This document shows, piece after piece, positions 44,580 to 54,709 of a stretch of DNA of 64,000 nt. A model generated the notes under the pieces. It searched no databases. It saw nothing but the letters and a program-made list of their open reading frames with translations, and had not been told where the DNA came from. Origin of the DNA: an uncultured Anaerolineaceae bacterium. Its GTDB lineage: Bacteria > Chloroflexota > Anaerolineae > Anaerolineales > Anaerolineaceae. How positions within the stretch are numbered: the first letter of the stretch is position 1; the number at the start of each line of letters is the position of its first letter. Both the position numbers and the translations under genes were made by a program. The DNA is taken from the NCBI GenBank assembly GCA_927443345.1, contig CAKMKJ010000025.1:61845-125844 (forward strand). Direction: 5' to 3'.

Positions 44580-45641
44580 TTAGAAAACGTGCACCCTTGT
44601 TCCGTATCCATTGGTTTCCATGAGTTGAGGGTCAGCTTCTGGGGTTGCCCAACGGTAAAGCCACCGTGCTTCACTCGTCACCATGTTAATGCATCCGTGG
44701 CTTTTGCGAACACCAAAATCCTGATGCCAATGTGTGCCGTGAAAGGCCACACCGTTGGTCATTTCAAAGAAAGAAGTCCACGAGACGCCGGGCAGCACAT
44801 AGGCGCCGTCTGCGTAATTATTATAAGGTTCTGGATTTCCCATGTGTTTTGAAAGCATCTTCGACTGAATATGAAAATAACCGGTCGGAGTCTTCCAGGT
44901 GGTTTCGCCAGGCGGGGTGTAATTCAAACCAGAAGAAATTTTGGTATTAAGCACAATTTTTCCGTCTTCATATGCAGTAAGTTCCTGATTTTCAAGAGAG
45001 ACTTCGATAAATTTTTTGTCAGGCGGCACATCCGTGGCGAGGGGCGACATTTCTGAAGGTGGGACGATGCGGGCATGCTTGGCCGGGATGTAGTAATCCA
45101 TGTTTTCGGAGTATTTCAACATCTCGTCTCGCAGGCGATACCAGGTTTCTCCGTCTGGACCTTCCGCAATACCTACGGCCCAATGGACGGTGTCGTAATA
45201 GAGGCGATAGCTATCAGTCCATACGCCGGGAGTGTGTTGGAACATGCTTTGCGTAAATGGTACCGTAATTTCAATGGCTGTAAGCCCCTCCGGCAGGTAG
45301 GATGGCACTTGATTGAGCTTAACGGCCACAGGCTGCACTGAAGAGCAGTGGATGAATCCACCCCATACGCGGTACCATTTTGGATTGTATAATGGTTTCT
45401 TATCTGAGATCACTTCGTAGTAAACAGGCAAAATTTCATCGCGCTGACGCTGAAATTTGATCGTACTTTCTTCATCGGGCCGACTGTAAACACTTAACGT
45501 TTGAGATGAATCCGCAGCGATGCGGATCAACGGTCCGCTGTCTTGTAATTCGGCAAAGTTGAAGGCAGAGGTAACGGCCAGGCTTGAAAGAGTCAATCCT
45601 GTTAGTTTGAGAAAATTGCGGCGAGAGTATTGTAGACTCAT
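44580..45641 (-). CDS. L,D-transpeptidase (YkuD) with Tat-like signal
   Basis: 353 aa; MSLQYSRRNFLKLTGLTLSSLAVTSA; catalytic region HGTHWHQDFGVRKSHGCINM. Confidence 0.9.
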   Translation of the reverse strand: MSLQYSRRNFLKLTGLTLSSLAVTSAFNFAELQDSGPLIRIAADSSQTLSVYSRPDEESTIKFQRQRDEILPVYYEVISDKKPLYNPKWYRVWGGFIHCSSVQPVAVKLNQVPSYLPEGLTAIEITVPFTQSMFQHTPGVWTDSYRLYYDTVHWAVGIAEGPDGETWYRLRDEMLKYSENMDYYIPAKHARIVPPSEMSPLATDVPPDKKFIEVSLENQELTAYEDGKIVLNTKISSGLNYTPPGETTWKTPTGYFHIQSKMLSKHMGNPEPYNNYADGAYVLPGVSWTSFFEMTNGVAFHGTHWHQDFGVRKSHGCINMVTSEARWLYRWATPEADPQLMETNGYGTRVHVF

Positions 45642-45671: not shown

Positions 45672-48008
45672 TCAAGAGTGTTCAACCATATCTGAGAGAT
45701 CGCTGCGTAATGCGTAGCGTCTGAAAGCCTGGGTCTCGGCCATGGATTTTTGAATTTTCTTTTTGATAATTTCCTGTTGAGAAGGGTTAGCAATTCCACC
45801 CTGAGATAGAGATAAGGATTTTGCGTTAACTTCCTGGATGGCGATAAGACCACGGGCTGACAACCATTGTATGGAGAGTCTCACAATTTCTTGTGTGGTG
45901 GCTAACTCAGCTGCGATTTCTTCAAGGATGAATTTAAATTGGTTTTGTGCAAAACCTTGTTTGATTTTTTGTGCTGTAGTTTTCAAAATCATTTCTGTTT
46001 CGTTTTCAAGTTGCTGGCTGCCAAACCAGAAGATTCGCTGAGGCTGTACTTTTAGCATGATTTCATCCAGAATAGATTGCGAGGGCGGCAGGGTGAGAAT
46101 GATCAAAGACTCACAAGGGGAGAGTTCGAGACGGTTTTTTCCTCCTATAGTTGAAGTTTCCAGACCTTCACCAAAAACTTCAGGTTGATATTTGGAGATA
46201 ATCTCTGTTAAGACCCTAATTGAAACAGAACTTTTGCGGTAATCGAAATGCTCAATATTATTCCGTTTTTTCGAACTAAAGGTCAGGCTATCAGTTTCAA
46301 TAGCACGGAAATCGAGCCATTCTAGCTGCAATTGTGCTTGCCCCTTATAGGTTGAAGCGCGAGCGGTAAAGGCCAGATCAAAGAGCCCTTCAGGTTGGGG
46401 CAAACCGGCAGACTGCCACCATAAGAATTTGAAAGCTTGACCCTGAGCATCCTCAATAAGAAGCTGCATATGTTCTTTGGTTTTGCCGATCGGGGTGGCG
46501 TTAACCAGCTTCATATTTTTGGCTGCCATGACGATAGGTGGATTGCCCGCTCCAAAAGGCGCCAGTTGATCAATGGATTGAAGGAGGGAGAGATCAATTT
46601 GCGCCGGCTGCTGCCAGACATCAATTTGCAGTTCATTCACCACTGGATGGTGTTCACTTTGCTGTTCGATGGTTTTATCTAATTCTCGCTGAAAGGATTT
46701 GAAATTCTGTGGGTCTAGTGCCAGCCCGGCAGCCATGGGATGACCGCCGAAGGAAGCTAGAAAGCTTGAATTTTGTCGGATGGCAGCGGTAATGTCAATT
46801 CCTTCGATGGATCTGGCTGATCCGCGCATCAATCCGCCCGGGGGAGCGACCATCAAGATTACCGGCCGGTGATAGAGTGAAATCAGACGGCTGGCCACAA
46901 TGCCCACCACACCTGCTGGCCATTCAGGATGTGAGAGAATCAAGACAGGATGGTCAAGCAAAGAGGGGTTACGTTCAATTTGAGCCAGCGCGCCTTGAAA
47001 AACCTGGTCGCATAATAGTTTTCGCTGCGCATTCAGGCCTTCCAATTGGTTGACGGTGACCGATATGACTGCTGGATTATCAGAGAGTAGAAATTCAACC
47101 ATAGGGTTGGCATCTGCAAGCCTGCCAACGGCGTTCATGCGCGGTGCCAGCGCAAACGAGATGGATTCCTCGGAGAATTGCGAAGCCTCAATTTCAGCAG
47201 CTTGCAACATGGCACGGAGGCTCGGCCGAGCGGATTGACGAATGACGTCAATGCCGGATTGTGCCAAATAACGCGAGTCAGCGTGCAGGTCAGCGATATC
47301 CGCGATTATGCCCAGTGCAGCCAGATCGTGTAGCGACCGAGCTTCCTCGGCCTGATTGAATCGACCAAGTAACGCTTCAGCGAACTTGCAGGCCACCCCA
47401 ACCCCCGGCAGTGGCCGCAGCGGATGGTCAGCCGCAAGCCTCTGCGGGTTGATCACGGCATAAGCCTGAGGCAGCGCTTCGGGCAGGGTGTGGTGGTCTG
47501 TGATGATCACGTCTATGCCTTGGGTATGGGCCCAGGCCACTTGATCAACTTCTGAAATACCCGTATCACAGGTGATTAGCAAGGTGATGCCCTGCTTGAC
47601 AAATGTTTGCAGTACGTCCAGTTTGATACCGTGGCTTTCGGGTCCGCGCACGGGCACATGGTAAACCACTTTTGCGCTTACCTTGCGCAGCGCGGAGACA
47701 AGGGTCGCGGTGGCGGTCTGGCCGTCTACATCGAAATCACCCCAGACGCCGATCAATTCACCGCCCATAATCGCCCGTAATGTGCGCTCGATCCCCTTGT
47801 CCATATCGTCCAATTCGTAGGGTGAAGCAGGGGTATAGGCGTGATAATCCATGAAGGCACGCGCCTCCGCGGAGGAATGCATGCCCTGACGCTGTAGAAT
47901 GCGCAGCACCAATTCGGGCAGATTCATCATGGTGGTTAGTTCGCCCGGCAGTGGACTTTCAGGAGGATCTACCCAGCGTATAGCAGAAGATGGCAAGACG
48001 GGTTTCAT
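45672..48008 (-). CDS. recJ: single-stranded-DNA-specific exonuclease RecJ
   Basis: 778 aa; GVWGDFDVDGQTATATLVSAL, ITDHHTLPEALPQAYAVINPQ, SFGGHPMAAGLAL. Confidence 0.92.
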   Translation of the reverse strand: MKPVLPSSAIRWVDPPESPLPGELTTMMNLPELVLRILQRQGMHSSAEARAFMDYHAYTPASPYELDDMDKGIERTLRAIMGGELIGVWGDFDVDGQTATATLVSALRKVSAKVVYHVPVRGPESHGIKLDVLQTFVKQGITLLITCDTGISEVDQVAWAHTQGIDVIITDHHTLPEALPQAYAVINPQRLAADHPLRPLPGVGVACKFAEALLGRFNQAEEARSLHDLAALGIIADIADLHADSRYLAQSGIDVIRQSARPSLRAMLQAAEIEASQFSEESISFALAPRMNAVGRLADANPMVEFLLSDNPAVISVTVNQLEGLNAQRKLLCDQVFQGALAQIERNPSLLDHPVLILSHPEWPAGVVGIVASRLISLYHRPVILMVAPPGGLMRGSARSIEGIDITAAIRQNSSFLASFGGHPMAAGLALDPQNFKSFQRELDKTIEQQSEHHPVVNELQIDVWQQPAQIDLSLLQSIDQLAPFGAGNPPIVMAAKNMKLVNATPIGKTKEHMQLLIEDAQGQAFKFLWWQSAGLPQPEGLFDLAFTARASTYKGQAQLQLEWLDFRAIETDSLTFSSKKRNNIEHFDYRKSSVSIRVLTEIISKYQPEVFGEGLETSTIGGKNRLELSPCESLIILTLPPSQSILDEIMLKVQPQRIFWFGSQQLENETEMILKTTAQKIKQGFAQNQFKFILEEIAAELATTQEIVRLSIQWLSARGLIAIQEVNAKSLSLSQGGIANPSQQEIIKKKIQKSMAETQAFRRYALRSDLSDMVEHS

Positions 48009-48011
48009 AAT

Positions 48012-48806
48012 CTAAATCGCATCAAAATCAAAATTGAAAGCATCGTCAGAATCAACTTGTTCGTCTGCCATATCGCTCGTACCGGCTTCTTTACCGCGAT
48101 CGCAGAGAGATCGGAATCGGCAGAAGTTGCAGGCTTTCAAATTATCCGTTTTTCTGAATGCCTCTTTTTCTTTGGACGCGATTTCGTTTATAAGCAGTTC
48201 AATTTCTGTCTGATCCGCTTCTTTTTGGGCGCTAGAATAGGCGAAGCTGACCGGAGATTTTGGAAAAGCCGGATACCAGTAGACCATTTCAACGGATTCA
48301 GGCAATATATTCTGGTTGGCTGACAAGGCTGATATCACATACGGATATACCTTGCTTTGCATGCGAGACAGCAAGGTCTGGCGTTTGGGCTGGTGTTGCG
48401 AGGTTTTCCAATCGTAGAGGGTAAGTTTTCCGTCAGACTTGAGCAGTAAATCAATTTTGGCCGCCAGGCGGTAGCCAGCAAAGGGGATGGAATTCAGTTT
48501 CTCAACCGAAAAATTGCCAGGCGCAGGGTGAAGATCAAGTTTAAGAAAATTCTGCCACCATTCGATTAATTCAGGTTGGGTAATTTGGGCGGATAACACA
48601 TCCGCGGGGATGCCTGAAAAATATTGCTGGCAGAGCAGATGAAAGCGAGTGCCCAGAAGCATCAGCACTTCTTGTTCGCGGATGGGTTCACTTTCGACCG
48701 CAGGCCAATCGAGTTTCAAGATTTCTTTGAGATAGAATCGATAGGCGCAGTCTTTGTAATCCTGCAGGTTTTGTTGTGTAAAGACGAAGGAATCAGGCAG
48801 CAGCAT
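48012..48806 (-). CDS. stand-alone PD-(D/E)XK nuclease with probable Fe-S cluster cysteines
   Basis: 264 aa; AAKIDLLLKSDGKLTLYDWKTSQ motif; DYKDCAYRFYL plus ACNFCRFRSLCDRG (Cx2Cx5C), AddB/Cas4-like. Confidence 0.85.
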   Translation of the reverse strand: MLLPDSFVFTQQNLQDYKDCAYRFYLKEILKLDWPAVESEPIREQEVLMLLGTRFHLLCQQYFSGIPADVLSAQITQPELIEWWQNFLKLDLHPAPGNFSVEKLNSIPFAGYRLAAKIDLLLKSDGKLTLYDWKTSQHQPKRQTLLSRMQSKVYPYVISALSANQNILPESVEMVYWYPAFPKSPVSFAYSSAQKEADQTEIELLINEIASKEKEAFRKTDNLKACNFCRFRSLCDRGKEAGTSDMADEQVDSDDAFNFDFDAI

Positions 48807-51030
48807 TCTTTTCCTCCAAAATAGCGTGCAAGGCTTCGAGCGGCAGAGCCATGCGTGCTTCTTTGCGCCGTCCGGTGTTCCAGGTGATGATCAGAGATTC
48901 ACGCGCGCGAGTAATGCCTACGTACAACAAGCGCAGGCGCTCTGACGAATACTCAAGCCTGGCGAGGCGGGTGGCATATCCGGCTTCCATAAACATACCG
49001 GGGATGTCGTCTTTTACAATAGCTTTCAACTTGGAGAGAAGTTCAGCTTCAAGGTTAAGGTGATGGGCGATAAACCATTTTTCACCCTTGTAATTGTCAA
49101 ACGCCTGGGCGGAAGGGAAATCATAATTATTGACCGAAAGCAAATAGACCCTATCCCACTCAAGGCCCTTGGCTTTGTGGAAGGTGCTGACCAGTACCTT
49201 GCCCTTGTGTGCTTCGGGGGTAAAGCCGGTATCATCTTCACTGAAACCGGCGAATTTCCGTTCATTGGAAGCGATTTCTGCCAGGTCAATGGCGAACTGG
49301 GGCAGTTGATATTCAGGATGGTTGCGAGCGCTGAATTCAAGCAGTAAAGCCAGTTTATGCGTCAGCGCCAAATCTTGCGGAGAGGTGAAGAGGTCGCGCC
49401 CGATGGTCAGCAGAAGTTGATCCACTGGCAGGGGGGCGGCGTTTTGCCAGCGCACCATATCAACCAGGAATTTGCTGAATTTTTGATCCAATGCCGGTGG
49501 CAGGGCATCAAGCTGAAGTATTTTGTGCCAATCATCTTGGTTGTCTGCGTATAGCAGAACCTCTAATTCGCGCACTTTTTTCAATTGGTTGAGCAGATTT
49601 GAGAGTTCTGTTTTGTTTTGTTCAAGATCAGGGTCATCTTGCATCAACAGTTGAAAAACGGCAGACAGTTTATTTACCGCTGAGGGATCTGATAAACAGA
49701 CGAGCACTTTTTCAAGAATACGAGTAACACGGCGGGTAGATTGTGTGCTCTTGAGCATTTCGACTATTTCGATGTCTGCAAATTGCAGCGCTTCAACCAC
49801 TTTTTCAGCATGGAAGCCGATCGGGCAGAGCACCGCCACGGTTTTATCCTGGTGGGTGGGCAGCCAGTTCTTAATGGATTCAACCACCTTCTTGATTTCT
49901 TCTTCTGAATCAACCGCGTTTTTCATGATGTAAACGGATTGTGGATGATCGGGCGGGTTGGGCTGCGGATCGCCAGGCGGGGCAGGGATGATGGAAGGCA
50001 GCGACAGCGAACTACGTAGTTCTTCCACGGGGTGTGCGTCGCGTGTCCATTTGTTTAAATCGTTTGCCAGGCGGATGATACTTTTATTGGAACGGCCAGA
50101 GTTTGCCAGATCTTTGGCATCCACACCGGGTTCACGCAAAAAGTCGCGCAAAAAGGTGGGGCTGGCGGTGGTGAAGGTTTCATAAATAGCCTGGTTGGTG
50201 TCGCCCACACGCACCCAATTGCCGTCAGGTCCAACCAACAGTCTGAGGATGCGTTCTTGCACCATCGACGAATCCTGAGCTTCATCTTCAAGGATATATG
50301 GCCAACGGTAGCGTAATCTTTCAAGGAATTCCTTATCAGATATAAGTACCCGGTGAGCCAGCCTGACAAGATCAGAGAAATCCACTGAGCCGCGATAGCG
50401 TAATCCTCTTTGATATTCGTAATAGACCTGAACGGCCATATCAAGCAGGGGGTCGGAGAGGTGGTTTTTTTCCATTTTCTCGCGCAGTTCGGCGGGTTCA
50501 ATTTGGAGGTCTTTCGCCTGACTAATGAAATTTGCACAAATGCTGGTGACCGTTTCATTCCAATTTTTGTGTGTTTTGGGTTCTTTTTGCAGGTCAATGG
50601 TGGGGTCGACATACTGTTCAGCCAGTTCAGGGTGCTCGCGCAAATAAGCAGCCACTGCGCCTTCAATCATGCGCGAAGCTTCATTATCATCCAGGATGGA
50701 AAACTGTTCAGAAAGCCCTGCTAAATCGGGTCTTTCACGCACGATGTCATGCGCCAGTCCGTGCAGGGTGCGAACACGGTAGCCCATGCTCTCAAGCAGA
50801 CCAGCATCGCGAACGAAAGAAGCAATGCGGGTCGAGAAGTTATCCACAGCAGAATTGACCAGGGTGACGATCAAAATTTCTTGATCGTCGTAGATGGAGC
50901 CTTCAGTTATTAGTTGGGCTGCCAGGGCAGAAAGGGTGGCGGTCTTACCGCTGCCCGGCACCGCAGCCACGCCCATTTTGCCACTCTGATATTTGAGAAT
51001 TTCTGCCTGCATCGGACGAGGTTTAAACAT
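48793..51030 (-). CDS. UvrD/PcrA-like ATP-dependent helicase
   Basis: 745 aa; AAVPGSGKTATLSALAAQ, EDEAQDSSMVQ, GDTNQAIYETF, VSTFHKAKGLEWDRVYLL, RLLYVGITRARESLIITW. Confidence 0.92.
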   Translation of the reverse strand: MFKPRPMQAEILKYQSGKMGVAAVPGSGKTATLSALAAQLITEGSIYDDQEILIVTLVNSAVDNFSTRIASFVRDAGLLESMGYRVRTLHGLAHDIVRERPDLAGLSEQFSILDDNEASRMIEGAVAAYLREHPELAEQYVDPTIDLQKEPKTHKNWNETVTSICANFISQAKDLQIEPAELREKMEKNHLSDPLLDMAVQVYYEYQRGLRYRGSVDFSDLVRLAHRVLISDKEFLERLRYRWPYILEDEAQDSSMVQERILRLLVGPDGNWVRVGDTNQAIYETFTTASPTFLRDFLREPGVDAKDLANSGRSNKSIIRLANDLNKWTRDAHPVEELRSSLSLPSIIPAPPGDPQPNPPDHPQSVYIMKNAVDSEEEIKKVVESIKNWLPTHQDKTVAVLCPIGFHAEKVVEALQFADIEIVEMLKSTQSTRRVTRILEKVLVCLSDPSAVNKLSAVFQLLMQDDPDLEQNKTELSNLLNQLKKVRELEVLLYADNQDDWHKILQLDALPPALDQKFSKFLVDMVRWQNAAPLPVDQLLLTIGRDLFTSPQDLALTHKLALLLEFSARNHPEYQLPQFAIDLAEIASNERKFAGFSEDDTGFTPEAHKGKVLVSTFHKAKGLEWDRVYLLSVNNYDFPSAQAFDNYKGEKWFIAHHLNLEAELLSKLKAIVKDDIPGMFMEAGYATRLARLEYSSERLRLLYVGITRARESLIITWNTGRRKEARMALPLEALHAILEEKNAAA

Positions 51031-53143
51031 GCTTCACCCCCGTTGTGCCTTGCAATTTTCTAAGGATGGTTTGAACGGCCTTGATTAATGCACCGCGCTC
51101 TTCATTGCCTTGTTCGTTGACCCCCAGTGTGCACATGTATATATGCTCACTGCAGCGACGGATCAGTCCATCCATGATGCGGATAATCGATTGCTGGTTG
51201 GCAGCGTTTTCGTGCATATCGGTCCATAATTTTTCGTTTTGCCAGTTTCGGTTGAGCACATAAGGATGGGTGAGCGGCTGATCGAGGCGCGTCCACCAAC
51301 CTTGTGAACCAATATCCAGCCAGAATTGAAAGCGCACAGGGCGATTGTTCATCAAATACGAAAAGGCAGGTGAAACCAGCACAGCACCTGACCAGGTTTT
51401 TGTTGTCCAATCTGCCAAATATTGAGCTGATAGGATGCCTGTTTCAACCAGACGAATATATTCCTTGTTAAGGTCGTGGGTTTTTACAGAGGCTTCAACC
51501 GTCATCACCTGCCTGAACTTGCGGGCAGATTCCACCAGACGGCTGACGGCGGCGGCAGAATCGAAATTTTGATGGAATTTATAGCCAGGTTGAGAGAGCA
51601 GTTCTCCGAATAAGCGGCTGATGAAAAAATCCAGTTCAAGCGCATCATCTTTGCTGTTTTCTTCAAGCCAGATGCGCAACCTTTCAAAACGTTCGCCGAC
51701 CAGATAAGTGATACGCTGCTGCATCTCCTTCTTGATTGGGTCGAACGTACGCAAGCTGCCGGTGGATGCCGCGAAAAGCACCTGGGTAATCAAATCCGCG
51801 CGGATATAGTCGCAGCCTTCAATCAGCAGCAGGATGGCATTACGCACCTCGTCTTTGACCGGTTTCATATTCAATGTTGGAAATGCCAGTTTGACCAGTG
51901 TGAGCACCGCTTTGATGGCAGGCTCGTCGCGAAGTCCTCTAGATGGACGGAAGGTGCTGAGATTAAGACCTGCATCCGCGAAACGTGTGTTGATCGAGTA
52001 GCGCAGTGAATCACTCAAAAATGGCGTAAGCACCACGATCTCTTCAGGCGGCACACTCTGATTTTCAATCAGGTCTTTCACCTGTGTGGTGATCCAATCC
52101 AATCCCTGGGGATAGAAGCGGAAGGGGTGAATTGAGAAGGCATTATGGATATCCGTGGGGACATCTCCCTCAATCTTGTGATAGGTCAGGCTGGTGGTTA
52201 ATGCCGTTTCGAGGTGTTCCAACTCAGGTGATTTCACCATGGATTCGGTGAACTCTATAAAATTTTCGCAGCTTATAGCGAAACGGCTTGCCGAAACAGG
52301 ATCAGCACCCATAAAAGAGCGGAAACCGCCCTGCTCATCTTTGATGATCAGCGCAGACTCAAAATCAGGCAGCCAAGACTCAATGATGTCGTGCGCCACC
52401 GGGTAATCTTCTTCGGCATTGTCGTAGATCAGGTGCCGATAGGTTGAGGTGAGGTATTGTCTGCACAGCAGCGAAGGCCACAAATAATTGGCAAAAACGG
52501 CCAATTGCAGTGAAAAATCCAGTAGATTTTGCTGAAGACACAACCGCCTGAATCTCAGAGCGCATTCCTGAGCTTGGTCGTAGATGATGGCTTGAGAGGG
52601 TTTGCCCGCCCAAGCCTGGATCAAGCGTGTAGAAATCTCTTCAGGCGAGAAACCCACCACAGCCGATTTGTTGAGGTTGTCGAGAATCTGGCTGTAGAGG
52701 CGGTTGGGATCGATTGTAACGCTCTCAAAATAGCCAAGCTGCAGCAGAGGCTCCACCAGGTTCGCCAGGTAGTATTGGGCGGTTTCAAGGGTTAGAAAGC
52801 GGGGCGGTGTTTGAGGTGCAGCAAAACCGGCTTCTTTGGCCACCAAAGGCCAAAAAAGCGCCAACATACGCTGCGCAAGACCGCCGATGGTGAGGATGGA
52901 CGGTTCGCCGCCAGAGGTAAACTGCGGGGTTCGAATGACGTTTTTATAGGGTTCAGCCAAACTGCGTTGGGGGACGAGAATTAATATAGTGTCTGACGGA
53001 ACACCAGCCTCAATCAACGTTTGCATGCGCTGCACAGCAGCGGTGGTTTTGCCACTGCCGGCAGGTCCGTGCAAAAATACCCGTGATTGAACGGGTAATT
53101 CTGCGATTTGCTGCTGATTTTTGGTTAGTTTCAGATCCGTCAA
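51023..53143 (-). CDS. AddB-like / UvrD-related helicase-like protein lacking nuclease domain
   Basis: 706 aa; GPAGSGKTTAAVQRMQTLI Walker A; degenerate motif II (IYDNAEEDYP); no clear motif VI; 8-nt overlap with the helicase. Confidence 0.75.
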   Translation of the reverse strand: MTDLKLTKNQQQIAELPVQSRVFLHGPAGSGKTTAAVQRMQTLIEAGVPSDTILILVPQRSLAEPYKNVIRTPQFTSGGEPSILTIGGLAQRMLALFWPLVAKEAGFAAPQTPPRFLTLETAQYYLANLVEPLLQLGYFESVTIDPNRLYSQILDNLNKSAVVGFSPEEISTRLIQAWAGKPSQAIIYDQAQECALRFRRLCLQQNLLDFSLQLAVFANYLWPSLLCRQYLTSTYRHLIYDNAEEDYPVAHDIIESWLPDFESALIIKDEQGGFRSFMGADPVSASRFAISCENFIEFTESMVKSPELEHLETALTTSLTYHKIEGDVPTDIHNAFSIHPFRFYPQGLDWITTQVKDLIENQSVPPEEIVVLTPFLSDSLRYSINTRFADAGLNLSTFRPSRGLRDEPAIKAVLTLVKLAFPTLNMKPVKDEVRNAILLLIEGCDYIRADLITQVLFAASTGSLRTFDPIKKEMQQRITYLVGERFERLRIWLEENSKDDALELDFFISRLFGELLSQPGYKFHQNFDSAAAVSRLVESARKFRQVMTVEASVKTHDLNKEYIRLVETGILSAQYLADWTTKTWSGAVLVSPAFSYLMNNRPVRFQFWLDIGSQGWWTRLDQPLTHPYVLNRNWQNEKLWTDMHENAANQQSIIRIMDGLIRRCSEHIYMCTLGVNEQGNEERGALIKAVQTILRKLQGTTGVKHV

Positions 53144-53162
53144 AAGGAATATCCTTCAGGTA

Positions 53163-53768
53163 CTAATAAGGTTGACCTGCCATGGCGTGCAGCACAGCCC
53201 GCGTCAGCAAAGAATCCGCGGTGGAGCGGTGTGCATTGGGCAGTGCGATTTGAAAGGATGCACCGGCTTCTTCAAGTTTGAAATATTTCATTGATCCCCT
53301 GGCCGGATTCCACACACCGCGGAAATCAGAATAGAGGGGCAGCACATCCACAACCTTGAAATTCTCGCGCCACGGAAACTTATAAGCGGCATGCGATTGC
53401 TGCATCATGCGCAGATCAAATGGTGCGTTGTAGGCAGCGATGGTGCGTCCATATAAGTAATTGCGAATGGTAGGCCATTGAACCAGCCAGTTCTGTGAAG
53501 AGGCCACCATTTCATTGGTGATACCGTGAATCCGCGAGGTTTCGGCCGGGATAGTTTTGAAGGGTTTCACCAAAGCTGAGTACAAAAGGCTGCCGTCGAA
53601 ATCCACGATCGAGATTTCGACAATTTCATCTGTTTTATCAAGACCGGTAGTTTCGGTATCAATGTAAACGGGTTTTTCAGCGATCCAGCGGGCTGCTGTC
53701 TGGATGGCGTTTTGCTTTAAAGGTTCGGTGGAGGGGATTGTCATGGTTATTTTGCCTATTGATCCCAT
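53163..53768 (-). CDS. DnaQ-like 3'-5' exonuclease
   Basis: 201 aa; VYIDTETTGLDKTDEIVEISIVD ExoI motif; YNAPFDLRMM; HRSTADSLLT. Confidence 0.9.
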   Translation of the reverse strand: MGSIGKITMTIPSTEPLKQNAIQTAARWIAEKPVYIDTETTGLDKTDEIVEISIVDFDGSLLYSALVKPFKTIPAETSRIHGITNEMVASSQNWLVQWPTIRNYLYGRTIAAYNAPFDLRMMQQSHAAYKFPWRENFKVVDVLPLYSDFRGVWNPARGSMKYFKLEEAGASFQIALPNAHRSTADSLLTRAVLHAMAGQPY

Positions 53769-54604
53769 TCCAGCAGTTCTTGCAGTTCAACGGTGAAATT
53801 GGGATTTCCGCGGGCAGAAATGTATGCGCCGCCGTGGCCGGGTGTGGTGATGGTGCCATCGGTAAATTCGGTTACTTTAACGCCGTTGATGTAAATCTTA
53901 AAGGAATCGTTGACAAGCATTACGCCCAGCCGGTTAACTTGACCGCTGCCGGTTTTGATATTTGTATCTGCCGTCCACTTGACCAGATTAAAGCCATTGC
54001 CAGCGGCATCGATGCGATCAACGATATAACTGCCATCACAAGAAAGACCGACGAAGTATCCGAGGGTGCTAGTGTAAGTTGGAACCCGCATCGCCAGACC
54101 GTAATTGTCGCGGTCTGAGCAGGTGATGACATTAAACGTTCCTTCCAGGTAGAAGTTGGTGGGTGAGGGTGCAGTCAGCCGCCAGCGTTTGCCGCCGTTG
54201 ATGTTTTTGCTGGTGAAATTGAGACCGCCAACCTGATGAGAAATGCGGATGGATTCATCCTCGTAGGGATTGCCTGCCAACCCAAAGGGATTGCCGCTGG
54301 AGGCTGAATTGAAGGAAAAGTCAGGTGAACCAAGTGTGAGTTTGGGGTCGCTGGGGTTTACCGTGGCTGTTGGGGTGATTGTTGATGTGGCGGTTGCAGT
54401 CGGCTCGGGTGTTGCTGTTTCGAGCGCTAAAGTCGGTAGGGCTTCAGTGGGTTGAACCAATGCCGATTCAGTTTGTGAGGCAGCCAGCGTGCCAGCTACG
54501 CGCGTGGCAATAACATCCACTTCAGGGGTGGTGTTTGATTTGGGTAAATTGCAAGAGGCCAATAGCATGACCAAAATAAGTGTAATAAACAGGATTTTTT
54601 TCAT
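53756..54604 (-). CDS. lipoprotein with Thr-Pro linker and LamG-like C-terminal domain
   Basis: MKKILFITLILVMLLASCNLPKS lipobox; start 54604 has GAGAGGAAAA SD. Confidence 0.65.
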   Translation of the reverse strand: MKKILFITLILVMLLASCNLPKSNTTPEVDVIATRVAGTLAASQTESALVQPTEALPTLALETATPEPTATATSTITPTATVNPSDPKLTLGSPDFSFNSASSGNPFGLAGNPYEDESIRISHQVGGLNFTSKNINGGKRWRLTAPSPTNFYLEGTFNVITCSDRDNYGLAMRVPTYTSTLGYFVGLSCDGSYIVDRIDAAGNGFNLVKWTADTNIKTGSGQVNRLGVMLVNDSFKIYINGVKVTEFTDGTITTPGHGGAYISARGNPNFTVELQELLEWDQ

Positions 54605-54709
54605 TTTTCCTCTCATTTCTATTTTTATTATAGCTTTTCACGAGAATCTTCACAAATAATTTAGGGTATTTCTGGCGGCCATATTTTTTCATCAAAAAAC
54701 TGCTTCAGG

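Follow-up and report, generated by a model that had tools for sequence, protein, structure and literature searches.

A co-inherited helicase-nuclease module of Anaerolineae with an AddAB/AdnAB-like architecture

The locus and its genes

The window analyzed here, a 64,000-nucleotide stretch (C25:61845-125844) of a 3.67-Mb genome that is 98.8% complete, comes from a bacterium whose relatives belong to the Chloroflexota, class Anaerolineae. Its minus strand carries five consecutive genes, at ORF positions that agree with the initial annotation. They encode a DnaQ-like DEDDh 3′-5′ exonuclease of 201 aa (53163..53768; RNase_T, 2e-15); HelB, a putatively inactive SF1A helicase-like subunit of 706 aa with a TTG start (51023..53143); HelA, a predicted active SF1A (UvrD-like) helicase of 745 aa with all motifs (48793..51030); Nuc, a free-standing PD-(D/E)XK nuclease of 264 aa (48012..48806); and RecJ2, a second RecJ of 778 aa (45672..48008). 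Domain searches confirm the protein kinds originally proposed, and the junctions are exactly as first described: helB and helA overlap by 8 nt, helA and nuc overlap by 14 nt, and nuc and recJ2 are 3 nt apart. The gap between dnaQ and helB is 19 nt. A lipoprotein gene (53756-54616, minus strand) overlaps dnaQ by 13 nt, so gene overlap is not peculiar to the helicase and nuclease genes, and a YkuD L,D-transpeptidase gene (44580-45641, minus strand) lies 30 nt after recJ2. The lipoprotein and transpeptidase genes also border the cluster in close relatives and have no evident link to DNA processing.

The helicase pair

HelA contains UvrD_N (6.9e-47) and UvrD_C domains, and no PDDEXK domain was found in it by domain search. 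Walker A and motifs Ia, II, III, IV, V, and VI are all intact, with motif II (LEDEAQDSS) identical in 32/32 HelA sequences, which upholds the earlier description of a UvrD-like helicase with a full motif set. HelA nonetheless scores below the cutoffs that define established families: 87.8 bits against TIGR02785 (AddA; cutoff, 707.65), 84.1 bits against TIGR00609 (RecB; cutoff, 696.05), and 136.6 bits against the pcrA equivalog (cutoff, 911.2), which leaves it outside AddA, RecB, and the UvrD/PcrA/Rep group. In a maximum-likelihood tree, HelA proteins, including a Salinibacter copy, form their own clade (100/100) on a long stem, separate from UvrD and from AddA/RecB; the HelA profile used for comparison excludes one UvrD paralog (L004).

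HelB matches UvrD_N at 7.6e-11. Its Walker A motif (GPAGSGKTT) is kept across 62 relatives as GxAGxGKTT/ST, whereas motif II reads DNAEE in the host and D-N-x-E-E(-D) family-wide, versus DExQD, with N242, E244, and E245 invariant in the 62 sequences. An HMMER alignment with UvrD shows two further losses, the glutamine of motif III and the arginine of motif IV. An AlphaFold2 model of HelB (pLDDT, 89.3; pTM, 0.86) has a complete four-domain SF1A helicase fold, and neither this model nor the domain search revealed a nuclease domain. Foldseek matched the model to AddA and, over the HelB length, to UvrD, AddB, AdnB, and RecB; AdnB was the best helicase match by TM-score (0.64), and AddB reached a TMq of 0.56-0.60 over full-length HelB. 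A PDB search with the single HelB sequence returned a chance match only, whereas a profile search gave matches. Judged by its motifs and predicted fold, HelB is probably an ATP-binding pseudo-helicase whose motif II no longer has its catalytic glutamate, and the initial view of an AddB-like homolog with a degenerate motif II and no nuclease domain stands. HelB is not AddB as such: it scores 16.0 bits against PF21445 (ADDB_N; cutoff, 26.6), lacks the fused Fe-S nuclease that characterizes AddB, and forms its own deep clade apart from AddA, RecB, and UvrD in the maximum-likelihood tree. The motif pattern of the two proteins and the predicted fold of HelB would fit a putative active/inactive SF1A heterodimer of the AddAB kind.

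The nuclease and RecJ2

Nuc, encoded by a separate gene, matches PDDEXK_1 (1.3e-25) and pfam12705 (91.2 bits; cutoff, 22). Residues H56, E102, D119, D132-W-K134, Q150, and Y154 are invariant, as are four cysteines, C20, C226, C229, and C235, which we take to be an Fe-S pattern as in AddB, Cas4, and Exo5. By sequence, Nuc has a complete RecB/AddB/Cas4-type active site (H, D, (D/E)xK, QxxxY) and a predicted four-cysteine Fe-S signature, in keeping with the free-standing PD-(D/E)XK nuclease proposed initially. Its fold matches ACE1 (an Argonaute-associated Cas4 family protein), the AdnA nuclease domain, Exo5, and Dna2, with ACE1 the best match by E-value and the AdnA nuclease by TM-score (0.65). 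Assignment as a CRISPR Cas4 was rejected, the TIGR00372 score being 20.4 bits against a cutoff of 65.

The C-terminal tail of Nuc (window positions 48012-48077, minus strand) is acidic and predicted to be disordered and has a hydrophobic last residue. It mostly ends in EIxF, also in Salinibacter, and F is the last residue in 18/29 sequences; in the host's own family the tail is FDFDAI, less like SSB tails. SSB C termini in the same genomes are DEEYPF, EDIPF, EEEIPF, and similar, and the host genome (G000) encodes three SSB-family proteins, on contigs C2, C22, and C14. The Nuc tail may mimic that of SSB, in which case RecJ2 or another partner could be its docking target. Contig C14 of the host also holds (locus L002) an ORF at 1201-2406 on the minus strand for a 401-aa PD-(D/E)XK protein, and the ORF upstream of it looks by eye like the C-terminal portion of a helicase of the DUF1998/YprA type; a pairing of such a helicase with a PD-(D/E)XK protein has been described as defense linked (PMC5704561).

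RecJ2 has DHH, DHHA1, and RecJ_OB domains, scores 463.9 bits against TIGR00644 (cutoff, 396.9), and keeps the GDxDVDG, CDTG, and DHH active-site motifs, which confirms the fifth gene as a recJ. A conserved C-terminal extension of ~210 aa is present in the Salinibacter copy too. The host also encodes a canonical RecJ of 583 aa, on contig C64, which makes RecJ2 a second copy; in a tree, the RecJ2 set and its Salinibacter counterpart lie apart from the host's ordinary RecJ, weak evidence given that only one ordinary RecJ was included. By their motifs, HelA, Nuc, and RecJ2 are all predicted to be catalytically competent.

Co-inheritance and gene order

Among 199 genomes of the class, 104 encode both HelB and HelA, 5 HelB only, 3 HelA only, and 87 neither; HelB is thus present in 109, HelA in 107, and both in 104 of the 112 with either. 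In 38 selected genomes, Nuc occurs in 23/24 with HelB and 0/14 without (Fisher p 1.6e-9) and RecJ2 in 21/24 and 0/14 (Fisher p 7e-8), counts and tests that take no account of shared ancestry. An ordinary-length RecJ, by contrast, is present in nearly all. Three HelB-positive genomes (G067, G094, and G138) lack RecJ2 and one of them (G138) lacks Nuc; the relatives are mostly metagenome assemblies, in which absences can stem from gaps. Linkage alone is insufficient to explain this pattern, because in many genomes the genes lie on different contigs or far apart: in one closed genome (G027), helB and helA are ~9 kb from each other, nuc is ~0.12 Mb away, and recJ2 is ~0.75 Mb away. HelA, HelB, Nuc, and RecJ2 are inherited as a set. 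In some families, including the host's own (5/5 relatives) and another, f2 (9/9), all sampled genomes encode HelB.

The order of the genes recurs in many genomes as well. Downstream sequence of at least 9 kb is available for 42 named loci: helA lies within 9 kb of helB in 34, nuc in 29, and recJ2 in 23, and helB-helA-nuc-recJ2 are contiguous in 17. No fused forms of HelA, HelB, or Nuc, which would have pointed to physical contact, were noticed among the ORFs called in the fetched loci. Outside the class Anaerolineae, a phylum-wide sample yielded no HelB except for one weak helicase-level match; the range beyond Chloroflexota is under-sampled. All four genes do recur on plasmid pSR56 of Salinibacter ruber M8 (Rhodothermota), with their order unchanged and at 37-41% identity. 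Since this order is shared by many genomes and another phylum, the four-gene arrangement is not due to chance. The pSR56 operon has a DpdF-like helicase nearby and is preceded by an XRE-ImmA/IrrE regulator, which, with a small protein lacking a Pfam match, lies directly upstream (L147, 8059-9928). A distant HelB relative of 657 aa, with DNLEN as motif II, is encoded on the Ilyobacter polytropus megaplasmid pILYOP01 (L148, 11995-13968, plus strand), with no helA, nuc, or recJ beside it. A phage origin was rejected, as no HelB turned up in searches of phage records and viral contigs.

DnaQ does not follow this pattern. It lies upstream of helB in 15/54 loci with enough upstream sequence, almost all from close relatives; in other HelB-positive genomes it is usually unlinked or absent, and the Salinibacter operon lacks it. 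On this distribution we rejected DnaQ as a component of the module, to which it had been assigned at first; it is probably a lineage-specific neighbor. Of the modular complex initially proposed, the conserved set of an active helicase, an inactive helicase, a separate nuclease, and a RecJ is retained; the DnaQ exonuclease is not.

Relation to known end-processing enzymes

Only three UvrD-family helicases were found in the host genome, UvrD, HelA, and HelB; the search revealed no RecB-type helicase elsewhere, and no canonical AddB was detected. Apart from the module, no RecB-, AddAB-, or AdnAB-type enzyme was thus found in the genome, for which the initial annotation had asked for a check on addAB and recBCD, and the module is the host's only candidate of the RecBCD/AddAB/AdnAB type. 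Across the class, canonical AddB is present in 56/199 genomes, 36 of which also encode HelB (36/109 of those with HelB). There is no mutual exclusion (Fisher p 0.11, again with shared ancestry disregarded), and we rejected the idea that the module replaces AddAB. Nor does it fill an indispensable RecBCD-type role: some HelB-negative genomes have UvrD only, and four (G001, G008, G010, and G017) have neither AddAB nor another RecB-type helicase, so at least some members of the class can do without a machine of this kind.

The architecture of the module is AddAB/AdnAB-like. Like the Bacillus subtilis type of AddAB, it combines an SF1A helicase predicted to be active, a P-loop-bearing helicase that is probably inactive, and a PD-(D/E)XK nuclease with a predicted Fe-S cluster. 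In AddAB, however, nuclease domains are fused to both AddA and AddB, whereas in the module the nuclease is detached and RecJ2 is added. Descent by splitting of AddAB, suggested by the initial annotation, is not supported: HelA and HelB fall far below the AddA and AddB cutoffs and branch apart in deep clades of their own, and AddB coexists with HelB in the 36 genomes above. The model searches proposed at the outset (AddA, AddB, RecB, and Cas4) all fell below cutoff, and the RecB-type nuclease family was matched by Nuc. The mycobacterial AdnAB also has a helicase pair, and AdnB and the AdnA nuclease are the top TM-score matches of HelB and Nuc, respectively. Yet both AdnAB subunits are ~1,050-1,100 aa with fused nucleases, and the system has no RecJ, whereas neither HelA nor HelB carries a nuclease; AdnAB has been reported from Actinobacteria only (PMC6452273).

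Other systems share some of the parts. Unfused UvrD and Cas4-like operons of Clostridiales place a free-standing pfam12705 nuclease by a UvrD-family helicase, with an inactive helicase and RecJ not mentioned (PMC5704561). In Synechococcus elongatus, a single screen identified a second UvrD, a second RecJ (RecJcy), and a PD-(D/E)XK nuclease; loss of any of these or of cas4 raises RSF1010 transfer/maintenance and transformation (PMC10653904). No HelB-like protein was reported there (PMC10653904), and the set is likened to the module by description only. PADLOC GajB models match HelA (1.2e-44), GajB and HelA both being UvrD-family helicases, but Gabija (GajAB) was rejected, as PADLOC found no GajA (OLD-family nuclease) among the five operon proteins.

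Proposed function

We infer complex formation, end resection, and a division of labor among the four proteins, and on the strength of their sequences and co-inheritance we lean toward a single end-processing machine, AddAB/AdnAB-like with its nucleases on separate proteins, that would serve repair and/or degradation. HelA would translocate 3′-5′ and unwind duplexes from their ends, and HelB would bind ATP without powering movement and, in the manner of AddB, serve as a scaffold, separate the strands, or sense sequence. Nuc would cleave the strand fed to it, and RecJ2 would remove the 5′ strand. The outcome would be 3′-tailed DNA for RecA or the destruction of linear and foreign DNA.

A dedicated defense module, which we rank second and consider rather unlikely, would use the same activities differently: plasmid, phage, or transforming DNA that enters the cell would be unwound by HelA and HelB and broken down by Nuc and RecJ2, with repair a secondary role. 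The regulator upstream of the pSR56 operon and the DpdF-like helicase near it, the resemblance of Nuc to ACE1, and the optional presence of the set across the class all point in this direction. The S. elongatus plasmid and transformation data (PMC10653904), alike by description only, offer a lead rather than a test. Against defense speak the presence of HelB in all sampled members of some families, the lack of any HelB in the searches of viral contigs and phage records, and the position of the module in close relatives beside genes such as ruvX, mltG, and hemN, not in evident defense islands.

A third reading draws on the action of RecJ and UvrD-family helicases at stalled forks and at gaps, discussed in PMC10653904. 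Here the module would serve replication-gap or fork repair: HelA and RecJ2 would widen RecFOR gaps with HelB and Nuc as accessories, and double-strand ends would not be the substrate. A different job would fit the 36 genomes that have AddB alongside the module. This role seems improbable to us because it leaves unexplained a RecB-type Fe-S nuclease and an inactive helicase partner, the hallmarks of end resection. That these are unrelated repair genes, adjacent by accident, is hardly credible: the outer neighbors (the DnaQ, lipoprotein, and L,D-transpeptidase genes) do look incidental, but co-inheritance of the four genes even when unlinked and their recurrence as a unit in another phylum contradict it.

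Conclusions

The module of HelA, HelB, Nuc, and RecJ2 appears to be undescribed; we found no description of it in the literature searched. A published survey of presynaptic break-processing pathways comprises only RecBCD, AddAB, and AdnAB (PMC6452273), and break processing in Chloroflexota has been little described so far. We tentatively suggest, at somewhat lower confidence than for end processing itself, that an active/inactive helicase pair served by separate nuclease subunits, an Fe-S PD-(D/E)XK enzyme and a RecJ paralog of its own, represents a further class of end-resection machine. If so, the fusion of helicase and nuclease would not be essential to such machines, the module would offer separable parts for study, and it could supply a mechanism for the UvrD/RecJcy/nuclease set that limits plasmids in cyanobacteria.
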